A DNA stretch of 26,248 nucleotides from a virus, in IMG/VR virus record IMGVR_UViG_3300044627_000237, positions 1-26,248 of that record. One strand, given 5' to 3'. A program made the translations under genes and the position numbers. Below are positions 1 through 25,430 of the stretch, in pieces. Position 1 is the stretch's first letter; the number at the start of each line of letters is the position of its first letter. The notes below the pieces were generated by a model that was not told the DNA's origin, made no database searches, and was given only the letters and a program-made list of their open reading frames with translations.

Positions 1-23
1 TTTCTTATGTTTAAACGATTAGA

Positions 24-212
24 TTACTCTGCGCCTCTGCCGAAATTTGTGTCGGATGAGTCAAGCGCTTTTAGCAATGGTCCTGCTACACCTGTTAGTG
101 CTGCTAAGCCCAATGTTTTTAGGTCAGTAGTTCCTGCTAGATACAGGGCGAGAACAGCAGCAACCGCTGCACGCGCATAACTGCCTAGTATTGCTGCTAA
201 CTTTTGGTTCAT
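24..212 (-). CDS. Putative holin-like small membrane protein
   Basis: A 62-residue protein with one long hydrophobic stretch (about residues 5-27, rich in Ala, Leu and Val) and a second weaker one (about 32-48), ending in a polar acidic tail. It is the last gene of the leftward lysis block, directly after the endolysin. The ATG has a good ribosome site (AAGGTGG) that lies inside the endolysin frame. Size, hydrophobicity and position fit a holin, but no family signature is visible, and the two-helix protein at 669-935 is a rival holin candidate. A GTTTAAAC word lies just past its stop at 9-16. Confidence 0.6.
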   Translation of the reverse strand: MNQKLAAILGSYARAAVAAVLALYLAGTTDLKTLGLAALTGVAGPLLKALDSSDTNFGRGAE

Positions 213-672
213 TTATTACCACCTTCTTTTGGGGGACAACCGCAATGGTTGCTTTTATTTGGTTTACTAACTTAGGTGCTGCCATCCATGGGAACCATGG
301 GCGGACATCATCACCGTATCCATCATTGATGGAAATGTGCAAGTGTTTCGTGTGTGGATTTGAGCCTGTGTACTTGCGGTCACCTAACTTGGCTTTCTCT
401 TTAGACCAAATCTTTTTGTTAAAGATTAGGTATTTCACACGACTGTCTGTTTTTAGTTTTTGAAAAATCTCTGCACAATCAATCCCATTATCAGGGTCAT
501 GTGTTAAGTCAACAGCGTAACCAGTATTGTGGTCGCTAGTTGGGCTTTGCTTTATGTGAGCAGCAGAAGGAAGTAATCCATCAGATAACTTTTTGCGCTT
601 TGGTGCAATAGCAGTTGCTTGGCGCAATACTGCAAGTGCTGCTGGTGTTGCTTTCTTTGCTAGTTTATTCAC
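124..672 (-). CDS. Endolysin, M15-type (VanY-like) zinc peptidase
   Basis: A 182-residue protein with the signature of M15 D-Ala-D-Ala carboxypeptidase or L-Ala-D-Glu peptidase lysins. The motif SDHNTGYAVDL (residues 46-56) supplies His48 and Asp55, and KHLHISI (109-115) supplies His112; these are the expected zinc ligands, with His110 in the usual catalytic neighbourhood. It should cut peptidoglycan stem peptides at lysis. No separate wall-binding domain and no signal peptide are seen, so release would need a holin. The start is GTG, overlapping the previous stop as GTGA, with GAGGA six bases upstream. The last 28 or so residues overlap the next gene by 89 bases and are Cys-rich, which is odd for a lysin tail. 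Confidence 0.88.
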   Translation of the reverse strand: MNKLAKKATPAALAVLRQATAIAPKRKKLSDGLLPSAAHIKQSPTSDHNTGYAVDLTHDPDNGIDCAEIFQKLKTDSRVKYLIFNKKIWSKEKAKLGDRKYTGSNPHTKHLHISINDGYGDDVRPWFPWMAAPKLVNQIKATIAVVPQKKVVINEPKVSSNTRQLCACSGCCCSRPVSSRNY

Positions 673-935
673 TTGATTTCCTCATCTTTTTTTCTTGATT
701 TTAAACCATTAGCGCTAACAATTCCTGCTAATGTACCTGTTAAAAATACACACAATGTACTAACTAAATCAATAAACGCAGCATCATTAGGCGCTTGTTT
801 CATAGGTTGAGTAACAAACACAAGTGCATAAAGTAAAGAAAATACAGAGCCAGCAAATACAATGGCTAAAATAATTCCAATACTTACTATGAGTCTTGCG
901 TGCAGTTCCTCAGGGGTTAGTCGTGGTCGTGGCAT
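669..935 (-). CDS. Two-helix membrane protein, candidate holin
   Basis: Read from the ATG at 933-935 (MPRPRLTPEELHAR), this is an 88-residue protein. It has a charged N-terminus, two hydrophobic segments (about residues 14-43 and 56-76) and a charged tail (SRKKDEEIK). That layout is the class II holin pattern, and the gene immediately precedes the endolysin, whose GTG overlaps its TGA. A longer reading from 1028 is open, but it runs through the lipoprotein gene. The internal ATG has TGAGG eight bases upstream and is preferred. It could instead be a lysis accessory or exclusion protein. Confidence 0.6.
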   Translation of the reverse strand: MPRPRLTPEELHARLIVSIGIILAIVFAGSVFSLLYALVFVTQPMKQAPNDAAFIDLVSTLCVFLTGTLAGIVSANGLKSRKKDEEIK

Positions 936-1113
936 CTGTAAATACCTCAGGGGGTAGTAGGTCTTTAGTGCATGTTCCGGTTGCTTCACATTGTGGGGGG
1001 TTACACTCAGGTTTTTCCCAATTTTCAAATTGTTGGCACGGGTATCTTATTGTGCCATCATAAGCACAACTACTAAGAGTTAGTGCGGTTAACAAGCAAA
1101 GAATAAATTTCAT
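910..1113 (-). CDS. Small Cys- and Pro-rich lipoprotein
   Basis: A 67-residue protein from the ATG at 1111-1113: a short Lys-started hydrophobic signal, then a lipobox (LSSC), so the mature protein would be lipid-anchored at Cys16. The mature part is Pro- and Cys-rich (motifs such as KPECNPPQCEATGTC), suggesting disulfides outside the membrane. The gene starts inside the previous membrane-protein gene (41-base overlap) and ends inside the next. A small Pro-rich lipoprotein overlapping an inner-membrane protein resembles the Rz/Rz1 spanin layout, but superinfection exclusion is also possible. The longer reading begins at a TTG without a signal peptide and was rejected. Confidence 0.6.
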   Translation of the reverse strand: MKFILCLLTALTLSSCAYDGTIRYPCQQFENWEKPECNPPQCEATGTCTKDLLPPEVFTDATTTTNP

Positions 1114-1276
1114 CAACTCGTCTTTCAACTCTGTTTAAACGGTCAGACACACTTGTTCCCCCGTTTGGTTTAAGTTCACTTAGATAATGTTTGACCAAAA
1201 ATCTAATAGCAGCAGTAAAGCCAACTAGAAGGGTCATTACAGATACGGCTAGTGCAGCCCAGTTTGCAGGGGTCAT
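1073..1276 (-). CDS. Single-pass membrane protein with C-terminal coiled coil
   Basis: A 67-residue protein with an N-terminal hydrophobic helix (about residues 7-28), then a polar charged region with heptad-like spacing (DRLNRVERRVDEIYSLL, about 44-60). It is the first gene of the lysis block; the ATG has AAGGAAT upstream. With the overlapping lipoprotein gene that follows, it resembles the inner-membrane half of a spanin pair; small phage membrane proteins of unknown role look similar. A GTTTAAAC word at 1133-1140 encodes the Leu-Asn of the coiled-coil start. Confidence 0.5.
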   Translation of the reverse strand: MTPANWAALAVSVMTLLVGFTAAIRFLVKHYLSELKPNGGTSVSDRLNRVERRVDEIYSLLVNRTNS

Positions 1277-1288
1277 TTGTTCTATTCC

Positions 1289-3265: not shown

Positions 3266-3278
3266 TTAAACACTTCCT

Positions 3279-3386
3279 TTACTGGGGTTCGCCTTCGCAA
3301 CAATTTGCTTTGGTCTTACAAAAAGGGCATAGCCATCTAGTGGCAACAGGAGAAAATTCCTTGCCACAGTTTAAACAATCAATCAA
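3279..3386 (-). CDS. 35-residue zinc-ribbon miniprotein (TTG start)
   Basis: A very short frame with a clear zinc-ribbon pattern: CLNC at residues 4-7 and CPFC at 20-23, followed by a CC pair at 28-29. The start is a TTG that overlaps the upstream TGA as TTGA, the same style as the other overlaps here. Its TAA forms the start of the ribosome site of the next gene. Four paired cysteines at correct spacing in 35 residues are unlikely by chance. Without this gene there would be an unexplained 117-base gap in a tightly packed region. A GTTTAAAC word encodes the Leu-Asn between the first two cysteines. Likely a small metal-binding protein; partner unknown. Confidence 0.65.
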   Translation of the reverse strand: MIDCLNCGKEFSPVATRWLCPFCKTKANCCEGEPQ

Positions 3387-3730
3387 TTACTAATTACTTC
3401 AATCCAAGATGTTGTTGCTTCATCCCAGTTGTAACGCTTGCCGTCAGTAGGTGCAGCAACTGGTGGCTCCCATAGGTATGACTCTGTGTTAAGACTCCAT
3501 GATGCGTATGGCTGTGGGGCTGCAAAGCCTGTGCCATCCCATGTATATCCAATACCTGCATAGTTTTTGTTTAATGGCGTACCACCTAGAGTGTGAACTC
3601 CACCGATTGTGTTGTATGAAGTCTTAATCCAAGTGCCTGTGTAGCGGTCAGGGTTTGCTTGCAAGAAATCATCCTCAACTACATTAACTTGAGTAACAAT
3701 TCCATTTTCTACTTTAGCCCAATGTGCCAT
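3383..3730 (-). CDS. Fibre-associated phage protein of a common aquatic-phage family
   Basis: A 115-residue protein opening with MAHWAKVENGIVTQVNVVE. It continues with GTWIKTSYNT, then NYAGIGYTWDG, and ends with the Trp-rich stretch YNWDEATTSWIEV. I recognise this pattern from small proteins next to tail-fibre genes in many marine and freshwater phages, with no experimentally known role that I can name. Its ATG shares a base with the previous TAA (TAATG), so translation is probably coupled to the 66-residue gene. It is soluble with no signal peptide. Confidence 0.7.
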   Translation of the reverse strand: MAHWAKVENGIVTQVNVVEDDFLQANPDRYTGTWIKTSYNTIGGVHTLGGTPLNKNYAGIGYTWDGTGFAAPQPYASWSLNTESYLWEPPVAAPTDGKRYNWDEATTSWIEVISN

Positions 3731-3930
3731 TATTTTTTATCCTTATCTTCGCCGTAAAGCGTTACTGTGTTTACCAACTTAACATCACGCTTAGTGACAA
3801 TGCCGCCTTTTTCATCTAGTTGCGATTTAGCGGTTGCCTCATCATCTGCAATGATGTGTACCAACATAGTTACTTCGTATGAAAAGCATTGAGTTGGTTT
3901 TGTTTCTTTAATCTTAGTTACATTTGACAT
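3730..3930 (-). CDS. Small hypothetical protein in the fibre block
   Basis: A 66-residue soluble protein. Its middle (FSYEVTMLVHIIADDEATAKSQLDEKGG read in pieces) alternates strand and helix and is followed by a strand, as in small alpha/beta folds. Similar small proteins sit beside fibre genes in aquatic phages by my recollection; the function is unknown. The ATG has AAGGGGA upstream, and the stop overlaps the next start as TAATG. Confidence 0.6.
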   Translation of the reverse strand: MSNVTKIKETKPTQCFSYEVTMLVHIIADDEATAKSQLDEKGGIVTKRDVKLVNTVTLYGEDKDKK

Positions 3931-3939
3931 ATATTCCCC

Positions 3940-5685: not shown

Positions 5686-5700
5686 TATTAAATCTCCTTA

Positions 5701-8204: not shown

Positions 8205-8212
8205 TTATTTAC

Positions 8213-9118
8213 CTACCTTTGATAGTGACTGCGGACTGGGAATTGTCTGCGTTGGTTTTCCGCACACTCGTTTAAACGCTGTTGGTAAACACCAAACAGG
8301 AAGCGTGCTGCGGTTTCGCCTGAACGAGCAGTTTGTTGTGAGTCAAGCAAGTCTGCTGCTGCGTGTTGCGGACCAAGGCGAGATGGGTCAAGAAAGGAAA
8401 TCATCCTAAAGGAAGCGCCATAAAGGATTACATCCTCAGCGTATGAAGGCAGACCAGTAACAGTTGCAAAGTCATCAGTTGCTGCCGACAATAAAGTTGG
8501 GCGCTTTGAATAAACAACATTGACTTTACGCCCCGGAACGATAGGAGAGTAAACGCTGATACTCTTTCCTAAGTTACCGCCTGTGCCAAATGTTGTTGGG
8601 TTTGCAAGTCTGTCTAATTGCCATGCACGAACTGGAAGCCACTCATTGCTCGGACCAACAACAGAGTGTGTAATGTTTAAAATGTTTTCTGCATCATCAG
8701 GTAAATCATAAGTTGTTTTAGCAGCAACATAATTAAACTCTGTTTGTCCAGTTGCAAAGATAGCAGGATAGACGGCATTGATAGTGTCGTTGATTGCCCG
8801 TTTAATTTCATTGCGTGGAAATAATGGTGAAACTGTAACTCTATCATTAGCAGCATGAGCAGCAGCGGTAGTACCACGCTGTCCTCTACCCCAAGGGGCA
8901 AGAGTTAATGTGCTTGATGCTGGGTTAACGGTGTTTACATACACCATTTCATCATTGATTTGTATGAAGCCACGACCAATTACTGATGTATCAAAAACAG
9001 TAAGGGAAGTTGTAGAAGTTGTTGCGCTAGTTGTTAGCCATGTGCTGGCTTCGGAGTTAACCGTGTAGCCATGCAATAGCGTATCAATACGCTCAGTTAA
9101 TTGGTTAAGTGTACTCAT
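8213..9118 (-). CDS. Probable head-tail adaptor or tubular connector protein
   Basis: A 301-residue protein. Residues 1-20 form a helix, and 31-96 form a beta module ending APWGRGQRGTTAAAHAANDRVTV (in part), related to the fibre's module. Next comes a helical part beginning FPRNEIKRAINDTINAVYP. The C-terminal third is helical, with YASFRM-like packing (YGASFRMISFLDPSRL) and a conserved-looking helix QQTARSGETAARFLFGVYQQRL. This order, short helices around a beta core with a long C-terminal helix, fits connector proteins that dock under the portal. The place between head and fibre genes agrees. Its ATG overlaps the previous TGA (ATGA). A GTTTAAAC word at 8270-8277 encodes Leu-Asn in the last helix. 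Confidence 0.55.
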   Translation of the reverse strand: MSTLNQLTERIDTLLHGYTVNSEASTWLTTSATTSTTSLTVFDTSVIGRGFIQINDEMVYVNTVNPASSTLTLAPWGRGQRGTTAAAHAANDRVTVSPLFPRNEIKRAINDTINAVYPAIFATGQTEFNYVAAKTTYDLPDDAENILNITHSVVGPSNEWLPVRAWQLDRLANPTTFGTGGNLGKSISVYSPIVPGRKVNVVYSKRPTLLSAATDDFATVTGLPSYAEDVILYGASFRMISFLDPSRLGPQHAAADLLDSQQTARSGETAARFLFGVYQQRLNECAENQRRQFPVRSHYQR

Positions 9119-9381
9119 AGGTTAATAGACCTCAATGCATCTACCGCAGATTTTCCGGTTGTACTAGCAAGTTCATTACAAATTGCGTTTAAACCTTTAT
9201 AGTCTTTTGGTTGTCGGGATGAACTAGCCTTGTAATTAAGGGCAGCAATAAGACCTAAGCCTGTTGTGCCTGCATAGGAATTGGCAGCACCTTGCGGTGC
9301 TTTAAAAGATGCCACGCTGGTAATACCTGCAAGGCGATTAAGTTCACCTGTTAATGTACTGCCTGCTGTTCCTAGTGCCAT
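9115..9381 (-). CDS. Small virion-region protein with NxLAGTTG-like repeats
   Basis: An 88-residue protein with a threefold internal theme: LNRLAGITS (15-23), YAGTTGLGLIAALNYKA (36-52) and LNAICNELASTTG (64-76). I recall this theme from short hypothetical proteins in the connector region of actinobacterial phages. It has no membrane segment or known motif. It is translationally coupled on both sides (TAATG before, ATGA after). GTTTAAAC at 9187-9194 encodes Leu-Asn in the third repeat. Confidence 0.6.
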   Translation of the reverse strand: MALGTAGSTLTGELNRLAGITSVASFKAPQGAANSYAGTTGLGLIAALNYKASSSRQPKDYKGLNAICNELASTTGKSAVDALRSINL

Positions 9382-9966: not shown

Positions 9967-10118
9967 TATTCGTTCTCCATTTCCATGTTGTTTTTGTGAT
10001 ACATACCGGGTTGAACTGTGACCTTGTTTAAACTTGCTTCTGTTGGTTTACTGCTTACTTCCCTACCGCCTACGCCGTAAGGTTCAACAGCACCATAGCA
10101 TCCACACTCAGCACACAT
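9966..10118 (-). CDS. 50-residue protein with an N-terminal Cys cluster
   Basis: The start ATG at 10116-10118 shares a base with the TAA of the protease-like gene, and AAAGGAG lies upstream. The product opens MCAECGCYGA (Cys at 2, 5 and 7), suggesting metal or disulfide binding. Its second half (VTVQPGMYHKNNMEMENE) is polar. The stop overlaps the next ATG as TAATG. GTTTAAAC at 10026-10033 encodes Leu-Asn. The coupling on both sides and the ribosome site support it as real; the function is unknown. Confidence 0.65.
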   Translation of the reverse strand: MCAECGCYGAVEPYGVGGREVSSKPTEASLNKVTVQPGMYHKNNMEMENE

Positions 10119-10681
10119 TACTTACTCCTTTGTGTTATGACTTTTACATCTCCGCCAACACTTATGTTGTAATCAGCGGAAACCTTAATTGCTCTACGAG
10201 CCACAGCCTCAACGCTCTTAATAGAGTTCTTGCTCATGCCTGCTGCTGCTAGCGCACCAAGGGCTAAATCGCCCCCACTACCTACCGCATACAAACCACG
10301 GTCATCTCTTGACCATAAATAATCTTGGTCAACTTCGTAGATAACTCCGTTTAAACAAATAAGTGCATCAAATCCGGCATCTTTATCTTTAGTTGTATCA
10401 GGGTTGTACCCATGTTCAATCATTGTTTCCCGTAGGGAAGGCAGAACTTTTGTCTGCATAAACACATCTGTTGGTATTGTCTTAATTACTTTCGGTGGAG
10501 TCCAAAGGTAAGTTGCAATGTTTCCTGCAATAGCATCACCTGAAAACCCAAATACATAGTCGCCTTTTTTGATAACTTTATCCACACCTTTTGCATAGTA
10601 TGGTTTGTCCTCATAGGTAGTCATGGAGTCGGCTGCGATTAACGCCCAACCCTTTCCCTGAATACCTACAATGGCAGTCAT
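10118..10681 (-). CDS. Proteasome-beta/HslV-like Ntn hydrolase
   Basis: A 187-residue protein with the proteasome-beta or HslV fold signature. It begins M-TAIVGIQGKGWALIAADS. Removal of Met exposes Thr as residue 1, and Asp falls at mature position 17, exactly as in proteasome beta subunits. A Lys is at mature position 34 (33 in proteasomes). GVDKVIKKGDYVFGFSGD and AVGSGGDLALGALAAA match the family strands and the Ser-Gly turn near position 129-134. There is no propeptide, as in HslV. The gene sits between capsid and connector genes and is coupled to its neighbours, so the protein may act on or within the virion head. No unfoldase gene is in the window. The family is clear; the role is inferred. 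Confidence 0.8.
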   Translation of the reverse strand: MTAIVGIQGKGWALIAADSMTTYEDKPYYAKGVDKVIKKGDYVFGFSGDAIAGNIATYLWTPPKVIKTIPTDVFMQTKVLPSLRETMIEHGYNPDTTKDKDAGFDALICLNGVIYEVDQDYLWSRDDRGLYAVGSGGDLALGALAAAGMSKNSIKSVEAVARRAIKVSADYNISVGGDVKVITQRSK

Positions 10682-10956: not shown

Positions 10957-10958
10957 GT

Positions 10959-11216
10959 TTAAACCGTTGTTATGTATTCCTCATAGCCTGCTGCTATGAG
11001 CCGTGTTCTTGTTTGTTCATCAATGTCGTAAATGTGACCACCTAAATAAACTTCATCTGCTTCCAAGGTTTGAGTTTGACTTGGATAACGAAATGATGAA
11101 TACACACCATTAACTCGTAGGACAGTAATCCCACGGTTTATGCCCATACGCTCAAAAAGGGTATGTCCACCAGCAGGGGTTTCTTTAATGCTGGGTGGTG
11201 TGAATTGGTATGCCAT
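10959..11216 (-). CDS. Post-capsid head/connector protein, actinophage family
   Basis: An 85-residue soluble protein with PPSIKETPAGGHTLFERMG, then RGITVLRVNGVYSSFRYPSQ, LGGHIYDI and LIAAGYEEYIT. I associate the pattern (TPxGGHxLFxR, RYP, LGG, LIAAGYxxY) with a small protein encoded immediately after the capsid gene in actinobacterial phages; its role in the particle is unknown. AAGGAG precedes the ATG. Its stop codon is the TAA inside a GTTTAAAC word. The gene lies just beyond the strong RNA hairpin. Confidence 0.65.
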   Translation of the reverse strand: MAYQFTPPSIKETPAGGHTLFERMGINRGITVLRVNGVYSSFRYPSQTQTLEADEVYLGGHIYDIDEQTRTRLIAAGYEEYITTV

Positions 11217-11233: not shown

Positions 11234-11267
11234 CAGGGTAGCGGGCGTTTAAACACCCGCCACCCCG
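11234..11267 (-). promoter_or_regulatory. Strong RNA hairpin downstream of the capsid gene
   Basis: In the minus-strand RNA, bases 11267-11254 pair with 11247-11234: a 14-bp stem, 11 Watson-Crick and three G-U pairs, around the 6-base loop TTTAAA. In the plus-strand RNA the three G-U pairs become C-A mismatches, so the structure is tuned to the transcript actually made. No T-run follows, so it is not a standard intrinsic terminator. It may protect the capsid mRNA 3' end or reduce expression of later genes. The inner stem and loop together form a GTTTAAAC word. Confidence 0.7.
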
Positions 11268-11283: not shown

Positions 11284-12429
11284 TTAGTCAGAGATGCTAG
11301 ATGAAGTTTCAATGCGGAACAACGCATCATCACGATAGCGGGCGAAACCAAGTACGCCGTACCATCCGATTGGGCGGAAACGCATTAACTTATCAGTAAC
11401 AGGTCCGATAACTACGCCCGGTTCCTGTGCTACTGCTTCTGCCAAAGCCTGCTTTCCGCAAAGAATTGTGCGGTAAACATTTGTCTTTGGAGTAACAGTT
11501 ACAGTTGCACCTGATGTTACAGCAGCAGTAGTTGCTACTGAAAGGGTGAGAACTGCACCGTTGATTGCTGAAACAAGTGTGCTTGCGCCAGTTGTTGCAG
11601 AAATCGCTACACCATCACCGACATCAATACCTGATGTTGATGCAACAGTAATTGTTGTTGCACCTGATGCAGATGTTGTTGTGGTTGTAGTTGTGAAGGT
11701 TGACTGATTAGCACCTTCTGCCTTTTCGTACATGCGTGGTGTTTCTACAAAGAAAGCACCTTCGTATGTTCCGATTGTTCCAGCCCATAGGTTACCCTGT
11801 GCAGAGTCTGTTTGAGCGTGGATGTCGCGCCATCCGACTGAGCCGGTTTCGGCGCGAAGGTCGTGTGAAACCTCAGGGTGAATACCTGCCCAGTACAAAG
11901 AACCTTGGCGTGGAACAGCCTTGTTGCTACGCAACTTGGCTACCGCACGGCGGATTTTTGCAGATGTTAGGGTATCAGCAGATGATACTGTTGCTGTTGA
12001 AGTAACAGTACCACCATAGATAACATTTGTTCCCTGACGGAGAGTTTCCATTGCTAACTTATCAAGTGAGTCAGCCATGTTGAAGGCAATAATGTCTGCA
12101 ACTGCTGGGTCCACATCTGATAGTGAGAATAGTTGTAACTTACGAGTTACAAGTGATGCATTACCGTATTCTGCAAGTGTTACAGAAGTGGTTGATACAT
12201 CTGATAGCGCTACTGCATCAGGGTCTGTTGCCTCTGATAGTGCAGAAGTTGCCGCTGCCAAATCATTGTAAAGTGAAAATACAACGCTTGACCCCGGCAT
12301 TGCTTGCTGTGCTGGTCGCTTGTCTGCAACGCTACGAACTAGCGGTTGCGAACGGAGAGCGAACTCAACATAGCGGTCATACGCAACTTTTACCAAGCCT
12401 GCAAGGGCTGTGGTGTTGGTATCTGCCAT
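11284..12429 (-). CDS. Major capsid protein, HK97 fold, N4-gp56-like
   Basis: A 381-residue protein with the layout of N4-gp56 or P22-type coats: an N-terminal helix with FALRSQPLVRSVADKRP, LSDVSTTSVTLAEYGNA (76-91), a central TSAKIRRAVAKLRSNKAV, WAGIHPEVSHDLRAETG (180-196), and a C-terminal CGKQALAEAV followed by WYGVLGFARYRDDALFRIE. Residues about 242-313 are an inserted Thr-rich beta domain with TITVASTSGIDVGDGV, which probably lies on the shell surface. It follows the scaffold gene, has a strong AAAGGAG site, and is followed by a strong RNA hairpin, as expected for the most expressed gene. The family call is by recalled motifs and context. Confidence 0.85.
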   Translation of the reverse strand: MADTNTTALAGLVKVAYDRYVEFALRSQPLVRSVADKRPAQQAMPGSSVVFSLYNDLAAATSALSEATDPDAVALSDVSTTSVTLAEYGNASLVTRKLQLFSLSDVDPAVADIIAFNMADSLDKLAMETLRQGTNVIYGGTVTSTATVSSADTLTSAKIRRAVAKLRSNKAVPRQGSLYWAGIHPEVSHDLRAETGSVGWRDIHAQTDSAQGNLWAGTIGTYEGAFFVETPRMYEKAEGANQSTFTTTTTTTSASGATTITVASTSGIDVGDGVAISATTGASTLVSAINGAVLTLSVATTAAVTSGATVTVTPKTNVYRTILCGKQALAEAVAQEPGVVIGPVTDKLMRFRPIGWYGVLGFARYRDDALFRIETSSSISD

Positions 12430-14567: not shown

Positions 14568-16055
14568 TTAACCTACAATTCCGAAGTCACGAAGCAGGCT
14601 GAGTGCCTGATTGGTGTAAGTTTCTTTAGCGTTCTTTGTGTATTGCCATAGTGGGTCATTTTTAACAGACTTAGTAAAATCTGCAAATGTAGATTTAGCA
14701 GGCTTACCGTCAACGCCAGTTTTCATTGCATACTTCATAAGGTCGTTCCACTTGATTGAACTTTCATCCATTTCAAGAAGGGAAGCCATCTGATTGCGAT
14801 AATTACGAGTCATGTCGTAAAGACTTCTACCTTGATTTAAACCCTCAGCAAATGGGGAATAAAGTTCACTAGATTGGCGTTTCATTTCCTCATACCAAAA
14901 TGACTCATCACGACCATCCATTGTGTCTAACAATGATTGGTTAATTGATTTCTTGTAATTGTCGTCAAGGCTAACGCCATACTTCCAAGCCAAATCATTG
15001 ATACGGCGAATTGAACTTCCAATACTTCCGCCACCTGAAAAAATAATGTCTGACTTAGTAGCCAAGTAATTATCTAACTGGGCATCAGTCCAATCGTTTT
15101 TAACAGTTTCTAGGATGATGCCGTTTACACGCTTATTGTATTCCTCAGGGGTCATCATCTTGCCAGTAGTCGGGTCAATTTGGTTTAAACGGATACCCAA
15201 GGCTTCAAGCCGTTGTCTTACTGCATCTGTTTTATTGTTAATCTTTTGACCAAAAGTTGCAGCGTTGCGTGGGTCATTAGACTCTAAGAAAAAGTTACGG
15301 AAAGTTGGATACTCGGTTTGCCACCAAGTTGTGCCTTTAAGGGCTTCCATAAAGGTTGCTTCATCCCAATTCTGCTTCTTAGCAGTATCAAGAAGTTTCT
15401 CAATGTCGTCACGCATTTTGGCATCATCAAGTGTTTTAAAGGTTTGTCGCATGTAAGAAACCCATACGGTCTTATCAATAACAACTTTATTCTTATCACC
15501 TGTGCCACCAGTACCGCCTGTGCCACCTGTTCCGCCAGTTACTCCACCAGTAGAACCTTTTGTGCCACTTTGTGATGCTGAACCTTTGGCTGTGTATGGC
15601 TCAGGGTCAATGGAGTTAGGAATACCATCTCCATCTGCATCCTCAAAACTTCCAGTACCCTTACCACCGCTACCAACAACTGATGTAGGTGTAACCGTTC
15701 CACCAAGTTCTTTAATCTTGGCATCAATGTCTTTAATCTTTTTATCAGTTTCTTTAGCACCAAGAGTAAGCGCTCTCTTGCGCTCGCCCTGTAAGCGAGT
15801 AACTTCTGCTTGATTTTTCTTTTGCAATGCAGCAGCAGATGCTGTTTTAACTTGTGCATTAAGTTCGTCAAATGCTTTCTTTGCTGCTAAGTATTCTTTT
15901 TCTGCTTTTGTGTATGCAGGAGTGTTTAACTTAGCGCTTGCAAACGCTTTTCTTTTTTGTTCAAGAAAATAACCTGTTCTAGCAAGTTTTTCCTCAGGGG
16001 TCATTTCATCAGGTTGGACATTACCTCTACCGCCACCGCGTGGACCGACTGCCAT
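14568..16055 (-). CDS. Probable internal virion protein with Ca-binding-like loop
   Basis: A 495-residue protein. Residues about 17-125 are a charged helical region. At about 137-152 lies DADGDGIPNSIDPEPY, the type 3 thrombospondin-like or EF-hand-like calcium loop. A GGTGGTGG linker (about 170-185) leads to a helical C-terminal domain of about 310 residues with many Trp and Tyr (TTWWQTEYPTFRNFF, FWYEEMKRQ) and a C-terminal LLRDFGIVG. The domain resembles in style the neighbours' C-terminal helical domains. The Ca loop suggests folding or stability outside the cell. TAATG coupling joins it to the gene before. The exact role is unknown. Confidence 0.6.
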   Translation of the reverse strand: MAVGPRGGGRGNVQPDEMTPEEKLARTGYFLEQKRKAFASAKLNTPAYTKAEKEYLAAKKAFDELNAQVKTASAAALQKKNQAEVTRLQGERKRALTLGAKETDKKIKDIDAKIKELGGTVTPTSVVGSGGKGTGSFEDADGDGIPNSIDPEPYTAKGSASQSGTKGSTGGVTGGTGGTGGTGGTGDKNKVVIDKTVWVSYMRQTFKTLDDAKMRDDIEKLLDTAKKQNWDEATFMEALKGTTWWQTEYPTFRNFFLESNDPRNAATFGQKINNKTDAVRQRLEALGIRLNQIDPTTGKMMTPEEYNKRVNGIILETVKNDWTDAQLDNYLATKSDIIFSGGGSIGSSIRRINDLAWKYGVSLDDNYKKSINQSLLDTMDGRDESFWYEEMKRQSSELYSPFAEGLNQGRSLYDMTRNYRNQMASLLEMDESSIKWNDLMKYAMKTGVDGKPAKSTFADFTKSVKNDPLWQYTKNAKETYTNQALSLLRDFGIVG

Positions 16056-16687: not shown

Positions 16688-19600
16688 TTAAATCACCACC
16701 GGGTCGTTAGGAAAGTATCTATTGTAAAAATCGCTAAACTCAGGTGACTCAGCACCAAGTTGGGTAACAAATCTATCCCAAAGGTCTGCTAAGTCATCAT
16801 TACTATTTGCTTCCAATGAGCGTGAACCACCCATTTGGTCGCGTTGCAATAATGCTTGACCAATCTTTTTACGAGCATCTAGGTACAAAGCAACAGCCTT
16901 TACAACTGGGCGATTACCATTTTGTGCCATCCATGCTTTGTCTTGAAGTGCTTGTCCAAGGACATCAGCACGCTTCATGTACTTACCACGGTCAGGGGAC
17001 ATGTAGGCTGCATACCAATCAACATTGTTTTCAGCCATGTAATCTAACCATGCTCGCTTAGCATTATTGTATTGTTCTAATAATGGGTCACGATTACTGC
17101 CAATACCGTTTTGGATTTTAAATGCATCAATTACATCTTGTATCTTACGGTATTCAGTCCAGCCACGCTTTAAGTTTGCATCTTTAATAAGTTCTGCTGG
17201 GTTACGGTTTTGACGATAGGTGTTAGCCGAACCGGGGTATGAACCTGTGCGATACTGCCATTGATAGGCAGCCTGCGAGAAATCATACTTACCGTCAAAA
17301 TCATTAGCAAGCCATCCCATAAGTTCAGGCTCACCCTTTGCCTCTGCTTCTGCCATTAAACCGCTGAACTTACGAAGGTTACGAACGGTGTCTAGGTTGG
17401 CTTCAAGGCTGCCGGGGTTCTTAGATAAAGATACTGTGGCTTCAAAGAAGTCAGGGTACATCTCAAAGAACTTGGCTTCTGCTTCGCCGGGTTCTGTGTA
17501 TTGATTTTGGAACTGGCGGAAAACTTGTTGGTAGAAATCTACCTCAGGTGAGATAGCAAACGGTGCAGAAATTGCAGTCAAAGAACGAAGTAAATAAAAC
17601 TTGTTAACTTTGCTGGTAATTTCATCTACCGTTGGTGTTTCTTGGCGCTTACCTGTGTTGTAATTGTATGTTTCATAACGCAACATTTGGTTAAAGGTAC
17701 GAACATACATTTCGTCTTTAGACCACATGGTCTTTAGACGGCGCAATGTGCTAGGTAGAAAAATCTCAGATGCGCTGTTAGGCATACCTGCTGGGAATAA
17801 CGGTTTAAACGCTTCCTCAAATTCAGGGCGTTGGCGCAAGATTAAATAAGTTGGGAATACGGCATAAGGACCAAAACCCGGATTACCTGCTTGACCTTGG
17901 GTAATAACATCAAGGCTTGATAATGGGATGTTAACTCGTTTAAACGCGTTCTCAGCCACATCTTGCCACTCACCCGGCAATGCTTTGATAAAAGCATCAG
18001 GTACTTGAACCACAAGGTTAGCCATACCACCCTCACCAAGTTGCTTGGTATCGGTAATACGGTTGCCTTCTTGGTCAACTACTAATTGTCCATTAACAAT
18101 TTGTGCAATAGTTCTAGCAGCAGTTGTAACTACCTGTGGGTTCTCGGCAACAATGCCACCCCAACGCATTAAAGTATTTTCATAGGCTGCATAGAACGGG
18201 AACAACAAGCGCATTACTTGGCTTGATGATGCACCAGTTCTACGAACAATAGTAAACAAAGTACGCTCTACTTCACGGCGGGCTTCCTCACGGGCAGCAC
18301 GCTCAGCACGGCGTATTTCATCACCTGTAAGTTTATCTACACCTCTAGCCTGTGCAATTCCATCAATGTTTCGTTTAACATTTTCTTGATAAACAATGTT
18401 TACTAATGGGTGACGAGCAAAGGTATCCTCAGGAAGTGAGCCTAGGAAGCGCATAACACGGCGGTTAACCATGTCCACAATACGCTCTTGGTCACGGTAT
18501 TCCTTACTTGTAGTTACAAGCAGACCGTTAATTTCAGGTAAATTCTCAGGTTGAGTGCCAAAACGATTAAGTAAAAATACTTCTACATCTCCACCTGTAA
18601 GTGGCTTACCATCCTCTTTAGCAGCAGTAAGCATAAGTGCTGTATCCTCATCAGGAACATACAACTTAACAGCATTGCGTGTATCACTAATACGAGTTAA
18701 TAAATAATCATTTTCCTCGCCAGCCTTTAACTTACCAAACCCAAGTCCCTTGCCGGGAATTGTGTATGTGTTATTGGCATAGATACGCCCACCACGGGTT
18801 CTAGTTAAAAATCCTAAAATCTCATCATTAGTTGCACCGTCAAGAATACGACTTACTATTGGGTCCATAATCCCAGTTTCAGGGTCACGGAAGTGTAGAT
18901 TTAATACACCAGCCCATGCTTCAAAGTAGCGTGGGTCGCCGGGCTTAACTGGTCGCATTGCTCTTGAACCGGGACCTGCAAGGAACGCCATTTGCTGGCT
19001 TCCAATAATGCTGCCCCATGTTTGTTCAGATGATGTACGAGCAAGCATCCAAGATGCATTGTTAAATACTTCATCAACTTCGTATGAGTGACCATTTGCT
19101 TCGTGAGTAAAAGTTCCAAATCCAACTTTTGACTTAACAGACATTTGTTCTGATTGACTGATACGAGCGCCTAAGCGACCCATCATGTCGTCAAGTTGAG
19201 CATTGACCTCTGCGTATGAACGACCAATGTTAGCAGCAGCATCCTCAACACCATTGTTAATCATGGCAATTAAGTTCTCATCATCATAGTAAGGAGAAAC
19301 TGCTGGGCGAGTACGGCGTGATTTTTCTTTACGGCGTACCTGTGTCCGAGCAAGACGGCGTTCTTTAGTTGTTTGCAATGGCTGAGCAATGTCTAATGCA
19401 GCATCTGCTTCTGCTTGTGCTGCTTCAATTTGAGCGCGAGTTAACTTAGTAACTTCACGACCACGACCTGCTTCGCCTACTGCCTCAGGTAGAACAATGT
19501 GTGATAGTCCACCTGCACGGCGGTCATCACCTACAACTGCACGACCAAAATTGTTTTCACGAAGGTACTTGTACAAAGGAGAGTTTTGGTCTTGCCAACC

Positions 19601-22600
19601 TTTACTCTTTACCCAAGCACGCCAAACTTTTGCATCTCCACCAAATACTTCTTTGCGTACATCCAATGGGATGTCTGACCATTTATTAAGATAAAGGGCA
19701 TCACCATAAACACGCATTGGAGTAACGCTTCCACCATCACGGCGGACACGGAATACTGCACGCTCTAATTCTTTAGGATTAAGGTTGCGTATTCTATCCT
19801 CATCAACCTTAACAAAACCTTTACTTGTACCCTTGCGAAGTTCAACAATGTTTCCAGCACGGCTAGCGCCAATCATGTCTGACTTCATGCGGGCTGCTGC
19901 GGTAAGTAACTTTTCAGGGTACGGCTTACGGGCAGGGCGTGGGTCATAACCCCACTCAAACCAAGAATTGCCATCTGTAAAAATGTCGCCTGCACGAACA
20001 CGCATTTCCTCAATACGATACTCAGGGTCTAGGTATCTACTTCCATGAAGGTCTGCATACTCACGAAGTGGTGTTACCCAATCACCTTGGTTAATAACAG
20101 CAGGTGCATCTTTAGGAACAGCACGATAAACGGTAACCATACGATTTGGGTTACCTTTGTATTGATTGATAAATTCAACAATTTGTTTATCTAATCTACT
20201 AAAATCTTTTCCACCTACACCATAGATACGAGCAGCATCAGCAGAATAGACATCCTCAGGATAAATACGAGTTATGTTGTCTAGTGATGCACCAAACTCG
20301 CGGTCAGGTGCTGTGTGTGCGCCACGGTATCCAGCAGTAAATGATGATTGTGGATGGCGTTGTGGACCTTTACGAGTAACAACTCTTAGTGGAACTGGTC
20401 GCCCAGTATCTGAGATGTAACGCTCTAGTCCAAAACTAAATTCTTGTGTTGCATAACGGTCAGCAATTTGTGCATTAGTAGATGCAGATAATGGTCTTGC
20501 TGGGTCAAATTCAAAAGTATTTGTTGCTGAGCCATGATACAAAGTAACGGCTTCTGCTTCTGCCAAGGCAGAACGAAGTCTTGTAAGTTCTCTAGGTAGA
20601 ACAATGGCTGCTGCTTCCTCAACACCAACTAAATTACCTTTAGCCTTTTCAGCAGCAATGTAGTTAGCAATTAAGCGCTCGCCACCACGCTCAATGTCTG
20701 CCATGCGGGTACGGATTTCTCCTGCAAGACCTTTACGAGAAAGGTCAAGACCACGAAGCATGTCTTGAAGTTTTGCAACTTCATCACGCAAAACATTGAT
20801 GTCGTCTTTACGACCAGCCAAAACTTCAACATTATCAATAAGACGGCTAACTCCCGCTTTACGATTTTGTAAAAATCTTTGTACAGCCGAAGGACCACCA
20901 ACTGCTACTGCTGCTGGTAGGGCAAAAGCCTTAGCCATCATAGATAGTTGTGCTTCTGTAAGGTTACGAACTGTGTAACCTAGGCGCATAAGAACGGATG
21001 TTTTGAAAATGTCGTTAACATTATCAAGTGTGTTCATAAACTTTTGTCCACGAACAGCAATTTCCGTTGGGTCAATGCCTGAAAGAATACTTGGAAGTAC
21101 ACGCTCGTAAGAGTCAATGCCATCTTTTAGTCGGCGTAAATCCATTGCAATAACAATGTTTGCAGACTCACGCTCTAACTGTGGAAACTTAGCAATTACT
21201 GGACCGTTCTCTGTAAAGATAGACAAGAAGCCACGGTCTTTATGTTCTTTAAGTGTCTTAGCACGGCGGTAATCAAAAATTGCGTACAGTTTTTCAATTT
21301 GTTGTTGGCTCATGTTTGGGGCAATAATTCCCAAAGCATCTTTTTCAGCCAACTTAATAATGTTTAAACGCTCGCCTTCGGTGGCTGCTGCAAGATACTG
21401 GTCAGCGTATGCCCCAGCCTTTGGTGCAAATGTTCCACCTGAAAGTTCAACAGCCTCACGCAAAAATGCGTTCATCTCTACATAGGAGTCGCCATCATTT
21501 ACTCTGAATACACCACTTGGGCGAAACTTTGTAAAGAACTCTGACTTACCCTTCATGTAATTAACAACCATAACGGCTGGATGAAGGCTAGTTTTTTGTA
21601 TCATGGTTACTTCGGGGTCAGCAAAAGTCTTTGCTAACTTTTCTGCACGATTGCGTGCATAACCTGATAGTGGACCACGGGCAAAAGTTCCACCACGGAA
21701 CTCATTACCGCCAGTTGAAACTCTTTCTAATGCAATACGGAAACGGTCATCCTCTTTAACAAGGTTGCCTAGATAAGTTGAAACTGCATTATTGTACTCA
21801 GGGCTAACAATTAAATCACCATCAAGTTTTCCATTAAGTGCTTCACGGAAAGGCTTTGGTGTATCTGTTAAATTATCAAGAACAAGCGCTGCTTCGTCAT
21901 CAACTCTTGCGATTGCTGCCATTGCTTGCTTATCTGAACCAAGTACGGCACGGAAAGTATCAACAACTTCTTGGTCGGTAGTTGCACGACCAAATAAATA
22001 AGCCATAGCATCAGGGTGTGTAACACGCTTTTTAGACCAGTATGGATACTGAGTCTTTGCATCAGAGCGTGCAAGGAATTGAACATCCTCAACTGCACGA
22101 CCCTCACCTTTAAGAGCGCGACCTAATAGGTCATCCACTCCATCAGAAGTCATTGCTAACTTACCAAAAACTTTACGAGTTGCAGAACCCGGAATTGATG
22201 CAATACCAGTACGACCAGCACCCATCAACCCTGCTGCCATTGGCGCACGGGCTGCAATAGAAACACCTTTACCAGCAAACCCTGCAAAAAATAGCGGGTC
22301 AATAGTCATAGATGAAGTAAAATCAAGAGAACCACTAGCAAACTTACCAATAAATTGGTCGTTAAATGCTGCTTCTCTATCCTCAGGATTAAATAAATCA
22401 AATCCTGCTGCTAAATACTTTACATTACGGTCAAGAAAATCATGGAACCAACCTGAATTTTCTGCTGCGTTCTTGCCTTGACCAAACAAAGACAGGGCAA
22501 CTTGTCCCATTGAAATGTCGTCTTTGTTGTCGGCTACGCGCTTTTGATACTGCTCGTATGTTTCACCAACATTTTTGTATCGGTTGTACATAAAGGGCAG

Positions 22601-22861: not shown

Positions 22862-23334
22862 TAAACTTGACTCCGTAAGTAGCGATAAAAGTTACGCATA
22901 GAGTTTGATGCATTTGGTGACTCAGCAATTCGTGCATAGATTGGCAATACAGCCATAAGTCTTGCAACATCCTCAGAATTTTGAGCAGCAACCATTGCAG
23001 GTGTAGATAAAATTTCAGGTCCTGCGCCTTCACCTGTTCGTAAACCAGTAGTCATAGGTTGGTCAGGGTATTGAGTTGGTGCATCAAAAGGCACTACTTC
23101 TTTTGCATAATCTGCTAAAGCAGAGCCTTGATTTAAAGGTAAAGATGCTGGGCTGGGTTGTCCACCACTCATGGGCGCTTGGGTTTGTAGGTCATAAAAG
23201 TCCTGCCCGTCACCATAAGCCATGCCTGCTGCGTATCGCGCAGGTTGTCCATCCGTTCTTTGAGAGAGCGCACCGGGTCCTGAAACTGGTGCAGGGTTGG
23301 TCGGTTTCCTGTATCCACCGCGCTGGTCTGCCAT
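22861..23334 (-). CDS. Hypothetical virion-region protein, 157 residues
   Basis: A soluble protein. The first 100 residues are Gly/Pro/Gln-rich and probably disordered (MADQRGGYRKPTNPAPVSGP). The last 40 are helical (NSEDVARLMAVLPIYARIAE and SMRNFYRYLRSQV). It is encoded between the portal and the giant protein, and its TAA overlaps the giant gene's ATG, so the two may be made in a fixed ratio. It has no motif I can name; a portal- or core-associated role is possible from position only. Confidence 0.55.
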   Translation of the reverse strand: MADQRGGYRKPTNPAPVSGPGALSQRTDGQPARYAAGMAYGDGQDFYDLQTQAPMSGGQPSPASLPLNQGSALADYAKEVVPFDAPTQYPDQPMTTGLRTGEGAGPEILSTPAMVAAQNSEDVARLMAVLPIYARIAESPNASNSMRNFYRYLRSQV

Positions 23335-23440
23335 TTTATCCTGCTTTCATTTTCGCTTTAAGAGCGTATCTAAAGTGCATCTTTTAAAATTATGAGTAGT
23401 TTTGTTTAAACAGCATACTCAGGCTGCATCAATAAACTTC
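23335..23440 (-). other. Largest non-coding gap, between a 53-residue gene and the 157-residue gene
   Basis: This 106-base AT-rich gap is the longest without a supported gene. It holds a GTTTAAAC word (23404-23411) and a CATAAT -10-like hexamer on the minus strand (plus 23389-23394), but no convincing -35 at the right spacing, so a promoter is only possible. No hairpin is obvious. Confidence 0.35.
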
Positions 23441-23602
23441 TTACTTATTTTTTGAACCGCGTGTTCCTTTTGGCTGCTTGCCAAGATAAACCATACCGCC
23501 CTTAGGATTGCCCTTTTTTGGAGTGCCATCTACGCGTGGCTTCTGTACATTAGCCTTGCCTGCTGAACCTTGGTTTGCTGGCTTCTTGCTGTATCCCTTC
23601 AT
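23441..23602 (-). CDS. 53-residue basic Gly/Lys-rich protein
   Basis: A short frame right after the portal gene, with a strong AAGGGGGTGA site before the ATG at 23600-23602. The product (MKGYSKKPANQGSAGKANVQ, then PKKGNPKGGMVYLGKQPKG) is rich in Lys, Gly, Pro and Asn, with no hydrophobic core beyond MVYL, and is probably flexible. Small basic proteins are a theme of this phage (see 9381-9966). Binding to DNA or the capsid interior is conceivable. No family recognised. Confidence 0.65.
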   Translation of the reverse strand: MKGYSKKPANQGSAGKANVQKPRVDGTPKKGNPKGGMVYLGKQPKGTRGSKNK

Positions 23603-23615
23603 TTATTCACCCCCT

Positions 23616-25430
23616 TTACGCTGGTACTCGCCGAATTAGGCTAGCCTGTAAATTAGGCTCTCCTTGTTGAGTTAGACTTGCTAAAAGTGATTGAACATCA
23701 GGGCGACCACCGGGGGCTATTTGACCCGCTGCTGTGCCTACCATACGACCAGTTGGACTTAAACCAGCAGGTAGTTGTCCAGCACCTGCGGGACCCTCAA
23801 CTGGCATGCCATCAGGACTTACTGTTTCAGGAGTTATGCCCGCAGGTGTTGGAACCTCAGGTTGTTTAAACGCATCTGCCACAGCAACTTCAATAGAAGT
23901 TCCCTTTTGACGAGCGTTAATTACCGCTGATAAAGCAACTAAAATTTCACTAGGGTCTTGTCCTTGGGATGCAAGGGCTGGAATAGCCTGAGCATAAGAA
24001 GCAATCGCTTGCTTCATTGCATCACGAAGTTCCTCGGTATCAACCTTGGCTTCCTCTTGTGTTGCATTGAAAGAGAAGGGCATTTGTCGGCGCAAGAAAT
24101 CGCGTGAAATCAATTTATCACCGCGAGCCTGTAAACCAAATACTAATGCCCTGTTAGGGTCCAAACCAGCCATGAGTCCGTATTGGACATCTACGGTGTA
24201 ATCGCCATCAATGTCGCGATTTGGCTTGTATTTGATGGAGTAAGGGGTTCCGTGATGATTACCCTTTAACTCTTTTTCATCATTGCCAAATACTGCTTCG
24301 TCAACCCTTAGGCAAACGCTAACAAGGTCAACAAAAGTACGGGCAAACATAGAGTGTGCAGTTTTAATTTGTGTATCAAAGCCACCCATAAGAGCCTGAA
24401 CACCACGACCAGTAACGATTGAAGCATCAAGGTTACCTGTACGGCTCTCAGGATAACGAGAACCTAGGCGTAGTTCTTGTTCAAGAACTCCCTGTTGAGC
24501 AAAAGCACCTGCTGGTATTTCAAGCGGAACTCTACGGATTGCTTGTGGGTTAGCAGAACGCATGATTGCATCAGGTCCAAGAGCCAACTCTTGTACATCA
24601 GTAGGCATAGCGATTGGTGCTTGTACTGCCTTAGTTGCTGCCTCTAATGAAAGCAAGGCATAGCGTGCCTTGGCAACTTGAATTGCTAGTACATCATCAA
24701 ACTGACCGCGTGATTGGTCGTCAATAGATGGTCGTTGTACAACCCTAATCATTACTTCACCGATTGGGTTTACTGCACGGTCAAGAATTAGGTTATTGCG
24801 GTTAGGAATAAATAAAACATCTTGGTCTTTGTCGTGATAACGGACCACTTCCATCATGTCTGATGGGCTGTCTTTGCTGTAAATCAAATTAGCCAACTCA
24901 GGATACTGAGCCATAAGTTCAGTCGTTGGCTTCATAATGCGTTGATAGAACTTGACTACCCGACCAAAGCGGTCAATTACTGGGTAGGAACCAATGGAGT
25001 CAAGGAAACGGATGCGTGGCATTTTATGCTTAACATCAATTTCTACCTCTGCTGGTACGAACCCATAAGTTACATAACGGTCAGCAGCGGTAAACATCTG
25101 AGATTGTAAATTGGAGAAGTCAACATAACCGTTAACAATCTCTCCACGCTTATCAGCCTTCTTACGGGCTGACTCAGATACCATGGTAGTTGAATTACAA
25201 TTAAATGCTGGTAGTGGTGCAATAACTTCTGCCAAGTCACGGGCAGCAATGTCCACCATGTTCGCAACAATAGGGCTTTCAAATGGACCGTCAGGGAAAA
25301 GGTCAGGGAATACATCTCGCATTTTGCCTTGGCGTACCAATAGTACATTGTACATACGGGTATCACGGTCAGCGTATGCACGGCGATAACGGTCAAAACC
25401 GCTAGTTATTTCCTCAATGGAAATTGCCAT
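23616..25430 (-). CDS. Portal protein
   Basis: A 604-residue protein from the ATG at 25428-25430 (GAGG five bases upstream; a GTG two codons earlier lacks a site). It has the portal pattern: an N-terminal helix with YADRDTRMYNVLLVRQGKM, SPIVANMVDIAARDLAEVIAP, a wing with YGFVPAEVEIDVKHK and IRFLDSIGSYPVIDRFGRV, a long stem/crown helix region (VAKARYALLSLEAATKAVQ), LGSRYPESRTGNLDASIVTG, and a Pro/Gly-rich C-terminal tail. The gene follows the large terminase directly, which fixes the call. The portal forms the DNA channel and terminase dock at one capsid vertex. Confidence 0.85.
   Translation of the reverse strand: MAISIEEITSGFDRYRRAYADRDTRMYNVLLVRQGKMRDVFPDLFPDGPFESPIVANMVDIAARDLAEVIAPLPAFNCNSTTMVSESARKKADKRGEIVNGYVDFSNLQSQMFTAADRYVTYGFVPAEVEIDVKHKMPRIRFLDSIGSYPVIDRFGRVVKFYQRIMKPTTELMAQYPELANLIYSKDSPSDMMEVVRYHDKDQDVLFIPNRNNLILDRAVNPIGEVMIRVVQRPSIDDQSRGQFDDVLAIQVAKARYALLSLEAATKAVQAPIAMPTDVQELALGPDAIMRSANPQAIRRVPLEIPAGAFAQQGVLEQELRLGSRYPESRTGNLDASIVTGRGVQALMGGFDTQIKTAHSMFARTFVDLVSVCLRVDEAVFGNDEKELKGNHHGTPYSIKYKPNRDIDGDYTVDVQYGLMAGLDPNRALVFGLQARGDKLISRDFLRRQMPFSFNATQEEAKVDTEELRDAMKQAIASYAQAIPALASQGQDPSEILVALSAVINARQKGTSIEVAVADAFKQPEVPTPAGITPETVSPDGMPVEGPAGAGQLPAGLSPTGRMVGTAAGQIAPGGRPDVQSLLASLTQQGEPNLQASLIRRVPA

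Follow-up and report, generated by a model that had tools for sequence, protein, structure and literature searches.

An iterated 8-bp palindrome accompanies an SprT-like protein in phage genomes and may form its operator network

Introduction

Why would a phage genome carry one 8-bp word over and over, inside genes and between them, and what would read it? The question is raised by a stretch of virus DNA, IMG/VR virus record IMGVR_UViG_3300044627_000237, of which the whole 26,248 bp were analysed (hereafter the window). The word is the exact palindrome GTTTAAAC, present 15 times, as a preliminary description made from the letters alone had reported at the coordinates that we recover. We propose, at a probability of roughly 0.6, that these copies belong to an autoregulated, genome-wide operator ("stoperator-like") network, putatively read by the zinc ribbon of a phage-encoded SprT-like protein. 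Over-representation, conservation in place, the association of the word with a gene and with a protein motif, and the promoter geometry were established by computation; from these we infer direct binding, repression and a role in lysogeny or early-gene shut-off. The sprT-like gene of this phage sits outside the window.

Over-representation in the window

At a GC content of 44.2%, the window is expected to hold 0.81 copies of GTTTAAAC by dinucleotide shuffling, where none of 100 shuffles reached 15, and 0.99 under an order-2 Markov model, and the reversed control word has no copy there. Both the earlier estimate of about 44% GC and the earlier expectation of fewer than one copy in 26 kb are therefore borne out. 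Within-gene permutation of synonymous codons (n = 500), which the preliminary description had itself named as a possible refutation, gave 0.74 ± 0.81 copies (maximum 4) against the nine real copies that lie wholly inside genes, and the claim stands; a tenth copy in coding DNA, at 10957, straddles a gene end and is not among these nine. The over-representation of the word is confirmed, and is larger than first described.

By the present gene calls the word is read as Leu-Asn six times, not eight as had been thought. The three Phe-Lys readings, the stop-codon frame at 10957 and the non-coding position of the copies at 9, 11247 and 23404 were correctly described, and the copies at 3369 and 10026 also fall outside called genes, making five in all (the one at 10026 may sit in an uncalled gene). 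The flanks, said to differ between copies, proved to be non-random, with A or G as the base 3' of the word in 74-88% of half-sites across seven long relatives.

Conservation in place and word variants

The copies of the window were aligned to relatives, which overlap and are non-independent, and compared with the intactness of all 8-mers. At 65-70% nucleotide identity, 64 of 128 copies were intact against 9.0% of all 8-mers, at 70-75% identity 18 of 28 (12.7%), at 75-80% identity 13 of 15 (15.5%) and at 85-90% identity 43 of 47 (49.5%); at 60-65% none of four was intact. Far relatives conserve three places, 8270, 9187 and 10349, and do not conserve others such as 11247 (Table 1). Conservation in place far above the surroundings, together with the use of all three reading frames, argues that GTTTAAAC is under direct selection as a DNA word and not through the protein, which agrees with the preliminary description.

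The sharpness of the word was assessed in 13 early-region loci, where GTTTAAAC is 65-fold over-represented (419 against 6.5). Among its one-mismatch neighbours, those changed at position 3 reach 4.0-fold (GTCTAAAC), 3.6-fold (GTATAAAC) and 0.75-fold (GTGTAAAC), all others lying between 0.15- and 2.1-fold, which makes position 3 the base that varies most freely in the phages that use GTTTAAAC. At 8270 the word is replaced by GTTTAGAC in four relatives (L043, L045, L073 and L080), and three of these (L043, L045 and L080), which have no GTTTAAAC at all, carry GTTTAGAC at both 8270 and 9187. Two other loci, L251 and L258, have no GTTTAAAC and carry 30 and 26 copies of GTCTAAAC (0.3 expected). Because variant use follows lineage and position 3 is flexible, the sites can be described as a word family, GTNTAAAC, and it is as part of the operator reading, and with the same probability, that we regard it as a phage operator family taking the form GTTTAAAC, GTCTAAAC or GTGTAAAC by lineage.

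Two whole records with only 2-3 copies of GTTTAAAC, G004 and G010 (loci L217, L218, L221 and L222), carry 31-36 copies of TGTCTTAA (about 2.4 expected) and 26-27 of CTTAAGAC (about 2 expected). These words may be a start-associated sequence or the operator word of the divergent SprT of these records, in which Q-x-T-R is absent (KPKGRNTN instead). That they are the same operator with shifted specificity is a weak case, as the relatives that have CTTAAGAC at the place corresponding to window position 8270 (L020 and L024) are not G004 or G010.

Distribution among relatives

By capsid protein, the nearest cultured relatives of the window's phage are the Planktophila phages LanE43AprE7 and F5 (58-59%), followed by Streptomyces phages of the Beephvirinae (53-55% over about 78% of the protein). 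As the available part of their description has it, the isolation host of the LanE43 phages is 'Ca. Planktophila', a freshwater actinobacterium that they lyse (PMC10202952), and the host of the window's phage is probably a freshwater actinobacterium too. LanE43AprE7 and F5 have one and zero copies of GTTTAAAC, respectively, and no iterated word, and SprT was not detected in either.

The capsid protein led to 596 contigs; in the best 80 of these, taken with the window as 81 loci (L005-L084 and the window, 968 kb pooled), GTTTAAAC occurs 335 times against 24.3 expected; 75 loci exceed expectation and six have no copy. Of the 256 palindromes of 8 bp, none is over-represented more strongly, whereas avoidance of a restriction site would give the opposite. 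Several other palindromes in the same pool are missing or almost so, as if restriction sites were avoided (GCAGCTGC, 0 against 56; CAAGCTTG, 0 against 49; TTGATCAA, 0 against 36; CAGATCTG, 0 against 34; TGCATGCA, 2 against 61), and two more are enriched (GCTGCAGC, 209 against 56; TAGCGCTA, 67 against 11).

Whole records carry GTTTAAAC in 22 of 24 cases, with the highest counts in G008 (58), G001 (56), G011 (48), G009 (47), G002 (43) and G007 (37), and low counts in G004, G005 and G010 (2-3) and in G018 and G019 (zero). In G001, G008, G009 and G011 the sites crowd in one region, where 2 kb hold about 4-11 of them, while 2 kb of the remaining DNA hold mostly 0-3. We take this region as early since in G001 it encodes a sigma factor, WhiB, a deoxynucleoside monophosphate kinase and a metallophosphoesterase. 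It is absent from the window. Contig L472, identical to window positions 1-12622, extends leftwards with 12 more copies, and L235, 99.6% identical over window positions 19883-26248, belongs to a 40,846-bp record with 55 copies and an sprT gene with KKQTTR; most sites of this species therefore lie outside the window. Loci collected by GATase, a neighbouring early gene (best 80 of 94, 871 kb), hold 1812 copies against 24.5 expected, and nine of the 80 have none. The early-type region of G001 (L204:4225-9434, minus strand) encodes a class II glutamine amidotransferase, an Amidoligase_2 protein, an SprT-like protein and a DUF3846 protein, with an SLT transglycosylase and a WhiB protein nearby.

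An SprT-like protein accompanies the word

A scan of viral contigs for three GTTTAAAC within about 100 bp, made blind to SprT, returned 108 stretches from 104 distinct records, some from the window's family and many from outside it. In 86 of the 108 loci, the SprT-like family was the most widespread in dense loci (26 of 47 dense against 2 of 39 others). The gene and the word were then tabulated in the 53 distinct records of at least 20 kb, shorter ones being left out because fragments cannot show absence. SprT is present in 26 of these records, each of which has between 18 and 54 copies (4.3-16.1 per 10 kb), and was not found in 27, 26 of which have 3-13 copies (0.5-3.9 per 10 kb); Fisher's exact test for SprT against word density gives p = 2.9e-14, uncorrected for relatedness. 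Among records below 20 kb, SprT occurs in 19 of 30 dense ones and in six of a further 21. When 14 word-bearing genomes were compared at BLAST sensitivity, SprT was found in 13 and its zinc ribbon also in the 14th.

The GATase/amidoligase cassette was considered as a reader, being at first present in seven high-count and absent from four low-count relatives. It was rejected, as nine loci have GATase and zero GTTTAAAC (L251-L254 and L258-L262, of which L251 and L258 use GTCTAAAC) and only 9 of 47 dense fragments contain it. Tandem arrays of GTTTAAAC with periods of 22, 24 and 36 bp are found in records G082 (C1:29-124 and 49346-49419), G089 (C1:40576-40655) and G122 (C1:24496-24611), in none of which SprT was detected; they may represent another, local use of the word.

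Among cultured phages, 162 records matched the SprT-like protein, and 144 did so with the G001 protein as query. It is annotated as 'SprT-like protease' in phages of Arthrobacter, Microbacterium and Streptomyces, and also occurs in phages of Dinoroseobacter, Enterobacter, Achromobacter, Burkholderia, Acinetobacter, Bordetella and Pseudomonas. Twenty phages were picked by SprT match, for diversity, before any word was counted (17 from the first set and three from the second). A motif Q-[GST]-T-R precedes the zinc ribbon in 15 of them, and all 15 carry 4-41 copies of GTTTAAAC or GTGTAAAC. Ten use GTGTAAAC (Floof 16, Barnstormer 23, Zeta1847 22, Emotion 17, DrManhattan 26, Lego 25, Crosby 41, Maureen 17, Soondubu 19 and phage 4A 13) and five use GTTTAAAC (R5C 17, Alexa 8, Mica 7, Arya 7 and Mano 4). 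The five phages without the motif (Quenya, Franklin22, Armstrong, MW2 and Psa21-HRN) have 0-1 copies of either. The expected count of the main word, calculated for 11 of the 15 motif-bearing phages, is 0.04-0.24 in nine and 0.95-0.96 in Alexa and Arya; Crosby has 41 GTGTAAAC against 0.05, Lego 25 against 0.11, and R5C 17 GTTTAAAC against 0.04. The word family thus follows SprT across phages of Arthrobacter, Microbacterium, Streptomyces, Dinoroseobacter, Burkholderia and Acinetobacter.

The protein matches the SprT-like profile phrog_6361 (P0003, E = 8.1e-13; the L370 protein, E = 5.2e-27), while Pfam gave no significant domain and a profile search for solved relatives gave no significant match. 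Its C-terminal zinc ribbon has the pattern K-K-Q-x-T-R ... C-x-x-C ... C-P-x-C, and the invariant columns in 26 sequences are R3, E4, P68, H128, R142 (of Q-x-T-R), C148, R156 and C170. The protease motif HExxH is intact in 31 and lost in 32 of 63 distinct proteins, many of them close relatives. All 32 that lost it keep Q-x-T-R, which is missing in 8 of the 31 others. The SprT of the window's own species lacks the catalytic HExxH expected of an active protease. In G003 and G009 the open frames show the zinc ribbon alone (KQTTR), although GTTTAAAC occurs 29 and 47 times, respectively, in these records. Being the conserved part, and kept where HExxH or the whole protease part is lost, the zinc ribbon is pointed to as the candidate reader of the word. 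The predicted model of the G001 protein is confident overall (predicted local distance difference test 88.7, predicted template-modelling score 0.69), with N-terminal helices and strands, then a C-terminal strand pair and helix; a weak loop at 131-140 holds the KKQ segment.

Sites at promoters and within genes

Where a promoter pattern could be recognised, it consists of TTGCGN or TTGCAC, a spacer of 17-18 bp, TAGACT, and then GTTTACAC without a gap. Five sites of Lego, that of sprT (gp46) among them, show the TTGCG(C/T)-17/18-TAGACT geometry. Emotion has three such promoters including that of sprT, and Soondubu three similar ones; at the sprT promoter the site abuts the -10-like box in three Arthrobacter phages. 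No site in the TTGCG-TAGACT pattern was found in Floof or Zeta1847. A copy of GTTTAAAC precedes the sprT start by 16-28 bp in Mica, Mano, Arya and Alexa. Overall, 39 of 53 non-identical upstream regions of sprT, many from close relatives, have a site within 150 bp, against 11.7 expected from local density.

Sites are also enriched between genes. Ten of the 25 in Lego are intergenic, where 8.1% of the DNA is (p = 1.3e-5), as are 7 of 37 in the first 50 kb of Crosby, where 6.0% is (p = 0.006), and six of these 37 stand directly in front of a start codon, with a gap of 0-2 bp (0.16 expected). In the same 50 kb the non-palindromic GTGTAAAC occurs in both orientations (20 and 17) with nearly all genes on the plus strand, so that a signal in DNA rather than in an RNA strand is indicated there; the asymmetric form is biased in orientation in Lego (6 against 19) and in L251 (9 against 21). 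We disfavour a promoter element for a sigma factor, since the sites are palindromic, mostly intragenic and, where promoters are visible, downstream of the -10-like box.

Proposed mechanism and alternatives

In the mechanism that we propose, a phage-encoded SprT-like protein would bind GTNTAAAC through its C-terminal zinc ribbon and repress the promoter of its own gene by covering the start site, which lies immediately downstream of the -10 box, while acting at tens more sites, located in promoters as well as within genes. A distributed set of operators, together with a covered start site of its own, would make an autoregulated repressor the simplest role for a DNA-binding protein. In the window's family this action would be densest in the region of replication and regulatory genes that we take as early, and the crowding of sites there suggests early-gene shut-off; in temperate phages the network could keep the prophage silent. 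Since half of the proteins keep the protease motif, SprT may have another role besides, for instance in self-cleavage or in clearing DNA. The preliminary description had listed an operator or stoperator-like site among its candidates, which we favour, beside a methylation mark and a host iterated palindrome, which we do not.

Several observations weigh against this proposal. As to the sites, 14 of the 53 sprT genes, R5C included, have none within 150 bp upstream, and most sites are intragenic (15 of 25 in Lego, 30 of 37 in Crosby), unlike textbook operators; a strict sigma-70 scan found no promoter around the sprT of Lego, so that the -10 reading is our own. As to the association, the records are not phylogenetically independent, and dense contigs supplied part of the sequences behind the SprT profile. 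SprT was not detected in G088, which carries 21 copies in 23 kb, nor in some short dense fragments (G117, with 24 copies in 8.6 kb, G119 and G127), which as fragments decide nothing. Eleven of the 14 genomes compared had been picked by SprT, and five of the six word-negative genomes in that comparison also have SprT, with an altered motif. Among cultured phages the five motif-negative ones amount to roughly two lineages; the weakest positive cases are Alexa and Arya, where about one copy is expected for the eight and seven observed, and, by number, Mano with only four. The SprT of L314, L360 and L369 lacks Q-x-T-R although these contigs are dense in GTTTAAAC, so the motif is not strictly required. 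Finally, a Foldseek search with the predicted fold gave no significant match (best E = 0.043, M. jannaschii selecase).

The best-placed alternative is that another phage repressor reads the sites and that sprT is one of the genes it controls. A site at the sprT promoter suits a target as well as a regulator, and in Lego two annotated DNA-binding proteins (gp44 and gp45) adjoin sprT. We nevertheless consider this unlikely. No family other than SprT reached more than 10 of the 14 word-bearing genomes at BLAST sensitivity, the families being unannotated and no search for an L5-type repressor having been made; a changed zinc-ribbon motif of SprT coincides with absence of the word in cultured phages; and G003 and G009 keep the zinc ribbon without the protease part.

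SprT might instead be loaded at the sites for a job other than transcription, such as clearing proteins off phage DNA, organising a nucleoid, replication or packaging. The spread of sites through genes, fairly even in Crosby (1-5 per 4 kb), and the 31 proteins with an intact HExxH would fit. The loss of HExxH in the other 32, the window's species included, does not, and the abutment to -10-like boxes, the intergenic excess in Lego and the abutment to start codons in Crosby all point to gene control, which makes this alternative, too, unlikely in our judgement.

A methylation or modification mark, or a palindrome copied from the host in the manner of HIP1, would account for an 8-bp palindrome with a sharp consensus in mostly coding DNA, and Lego does encode a DNA methyltransferase. 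Both are disfavoured, to the point of being very unlikely, because the word family goes with a phage gene even where the phages infect unrelated hosts. The two Planktophila phages, where SprT was not detected, have hardly any copies, and SprT alone was common to more than 10 of the 14 word-bearing genomes, although methyltransferase was not searched by name. We also scanned cellular genomes (genome_contigs) for three GTTTAAAC within about 85 bp, which gave at least 114 stretches. The titles among the matches listed name Lachnospiraceae, Bacteroidota, archaea and others, two say only 'bacterium', and none names an actinobacterium. Many of these matches (within L085-L198) come from Lachnospiraceae and Erysipelotrichaceae with three copies in about 73-80 bp, perhaps a shared mobile or repeat element; the matches also include three contigs of the Planctomycetia metagenome-assembled genome H5_AMX3 and three from two Euryarchaeota bins (BM5/BL5_bin.6).

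Composition, codon usage or chance has a negligible probability, being rejected by the shuffles, the Markov expectation, the codon permutation and the conservation, with no point found in its favour.

Relation to known systems

The closest known system is, by analogy, the stoperator network of mycobacteriophage L5 and TipsytheTRex, both of Cluster A, whose sites, in the available part of the source, are 13 bp long, asymmetric, oriented with transcription and bound by a monomeric two-domain helix-turn-helix repressor (PMC9283540). As far as that text allows the comparison, both systems have tens of copies of a short site across the genome, promoters included, and a phage-encoded regulator, which is here a putative one. 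The L5 pattern of more than 20 copies including promoters is found in the window's species (55), Lego (25) and Crosby (41), with promoter-abutting sites in Lego, Emotion and Soondubu; the weakest cultured cases fall below it (Mano 4, Mica 7, Arya 7, Alexa 8). Unlike the asymmetric 13-bp site of L5, the site here is an 8-bp palindrome or near-palindrome, found in both orientations in Crosby, and its candidate reader is a zinc-ribbon SprT-like protein of phages from at least two bacterial phyla. In L5-type systems, binding halts both initiation and elongation of transcription and confers immunity, effects that would be predictions for the network proposed here.

SPRTN/SprT proteases combine an SprT-type metalloprotease domain with a zinc-binding part, and cellular SPRTN cleaves DNA-protein crosslinks; we know of no sequence-specific double-stranded site for these proteins. 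The phage proteins share the metalloprotease-type domain and the zinc part, with HExxH lost in about half. In actinobacteriophage records the same family, phrog_6361, bears no label other than predicted protease or 'transcription elongation protein', and we found no paper in the open-access literature that ties SprT to GTTTAAAC or GTGTAAAC. HIP1 of cyanobacteria is likewise an 8-bp palindrome iterated mostly in coding DNA; it is a feature of chromosomes, whereas GTTTAAAC follows a phage gene and has operator geometry.

Powerpuff, a temperate phage of Cluster AZ, forms homoimmune lysogens and is described, in the part of the report available, as having no identifiable repressor, and the same text names SprT among the genes common to clusters AZ and EH (PMC8758107). 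Powerpuff is among the SprT matches obtained with the G001 protein, and Lego, of the same Cluster AZ, has 25 sites. SprT is thus a candidate for the repressor of the temperate Cluster AZ phages, and with an sprT gene in Powerpuff, 25 sites in Lego and a putative operator at its own sprT promoter, the question is directly testable. More broadly, SprT-type proteins, often catalytically dead or reduced to the zinc ribbon, might constitute a new class of master regulator, acting as sequence-specific repressors with genome-wide operators in phages that are unrelated to one another and whose hosts belong to at least two bacterial phyla, and supplying the missing immunity repressors of temperate Clusters AZ and EH; we advance this tentatively and would at present lean somewhat against it. 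The tie to a DNA word gives an orphan, widespread phage protein family a testable function, and in uncultured phages, among them freshwater ones like that of the window, the word can help in recognising the regulator, operators and promoters.

Features of the window

The called genes of the window all lie on the minus strand and comprise the terminase end, portal, a 2057-aa protein, the major capsid protein and tail genes. Table 1 places the 15 copies among them.

Table 1. Copies of GTTTAAAC and the capsid gene in the window; near and far refer to aligned relatives.
Feature	Position	Strand	Location	Remarks
Copy 1	9..16		outside called genes, window edge	also in overlapping record L472
Copy 2	1133..1140		inside open reading frame 1073-1276(-)	104 bp before next gene start
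Copy 3	3369..3376		intergenic	103 bp before start of gene 1289-3265(-)
Copy 4	8270..8277		inside gene 8213-9118(-)	65 bp before next gene start; intact in 31/48 alignments below 80% identity
Copy 5	9187..9194		inside gene 9115-9381(-)	68 bp before next gene start; intact in 31/53 alignments below 80% identity
Copy 6	10026..10033		outside called genes	kept in 7/11 near relatives; the only copy not kept by all aligned near relatives
Copy 7	10349..10356		inside HslV-family peptidase gene 10118-10681(-)	intact in 18/25 alignments below 80% identity
Copy 8	10957..10964		junction of genes 10959-11216(-) and 10684-10956(-)	abuts start codon of 10684-10956; near 12/12, far 0/4
Copy 9	11247..11254		intergenic	30 bp before start of gene 10959-11216(-); near 12/12, far 0/15
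Copy 10	15183..15190		inside gene 14568-16055(-)	
Copy 11	17803..17810		inside 2057-aa gene 16688-22861(-)	GTCTAAAC here in 2/10 far alignments
Copy 12	17938..17945		inside 2057-aa gene 16688-22861(-)	
Copy 13	21362..21369		inside 2057-aa gene 16688-22861(-)	
Copy 14	23404..23411		intergenic	69 bp before start of gene 22861-23334(-)
Copy 15	23864..23871		inside portal gene 23616-25436(-)	
Major capsid protein gene	11284..12429	-		phrog_1357, E = 5.8e-80; query for finding relatives

Two further genes of the window deserve mention. The HslV-family (proteasome-like) peptidase gene that holds copy 7 lies within the structural module (phrog_1040, E = 4.3e-25), and residues 838-976 of the 2057-aa protein match PHROG 2579, annotated 'ParB C-terminal domain' (E = 9e-30).

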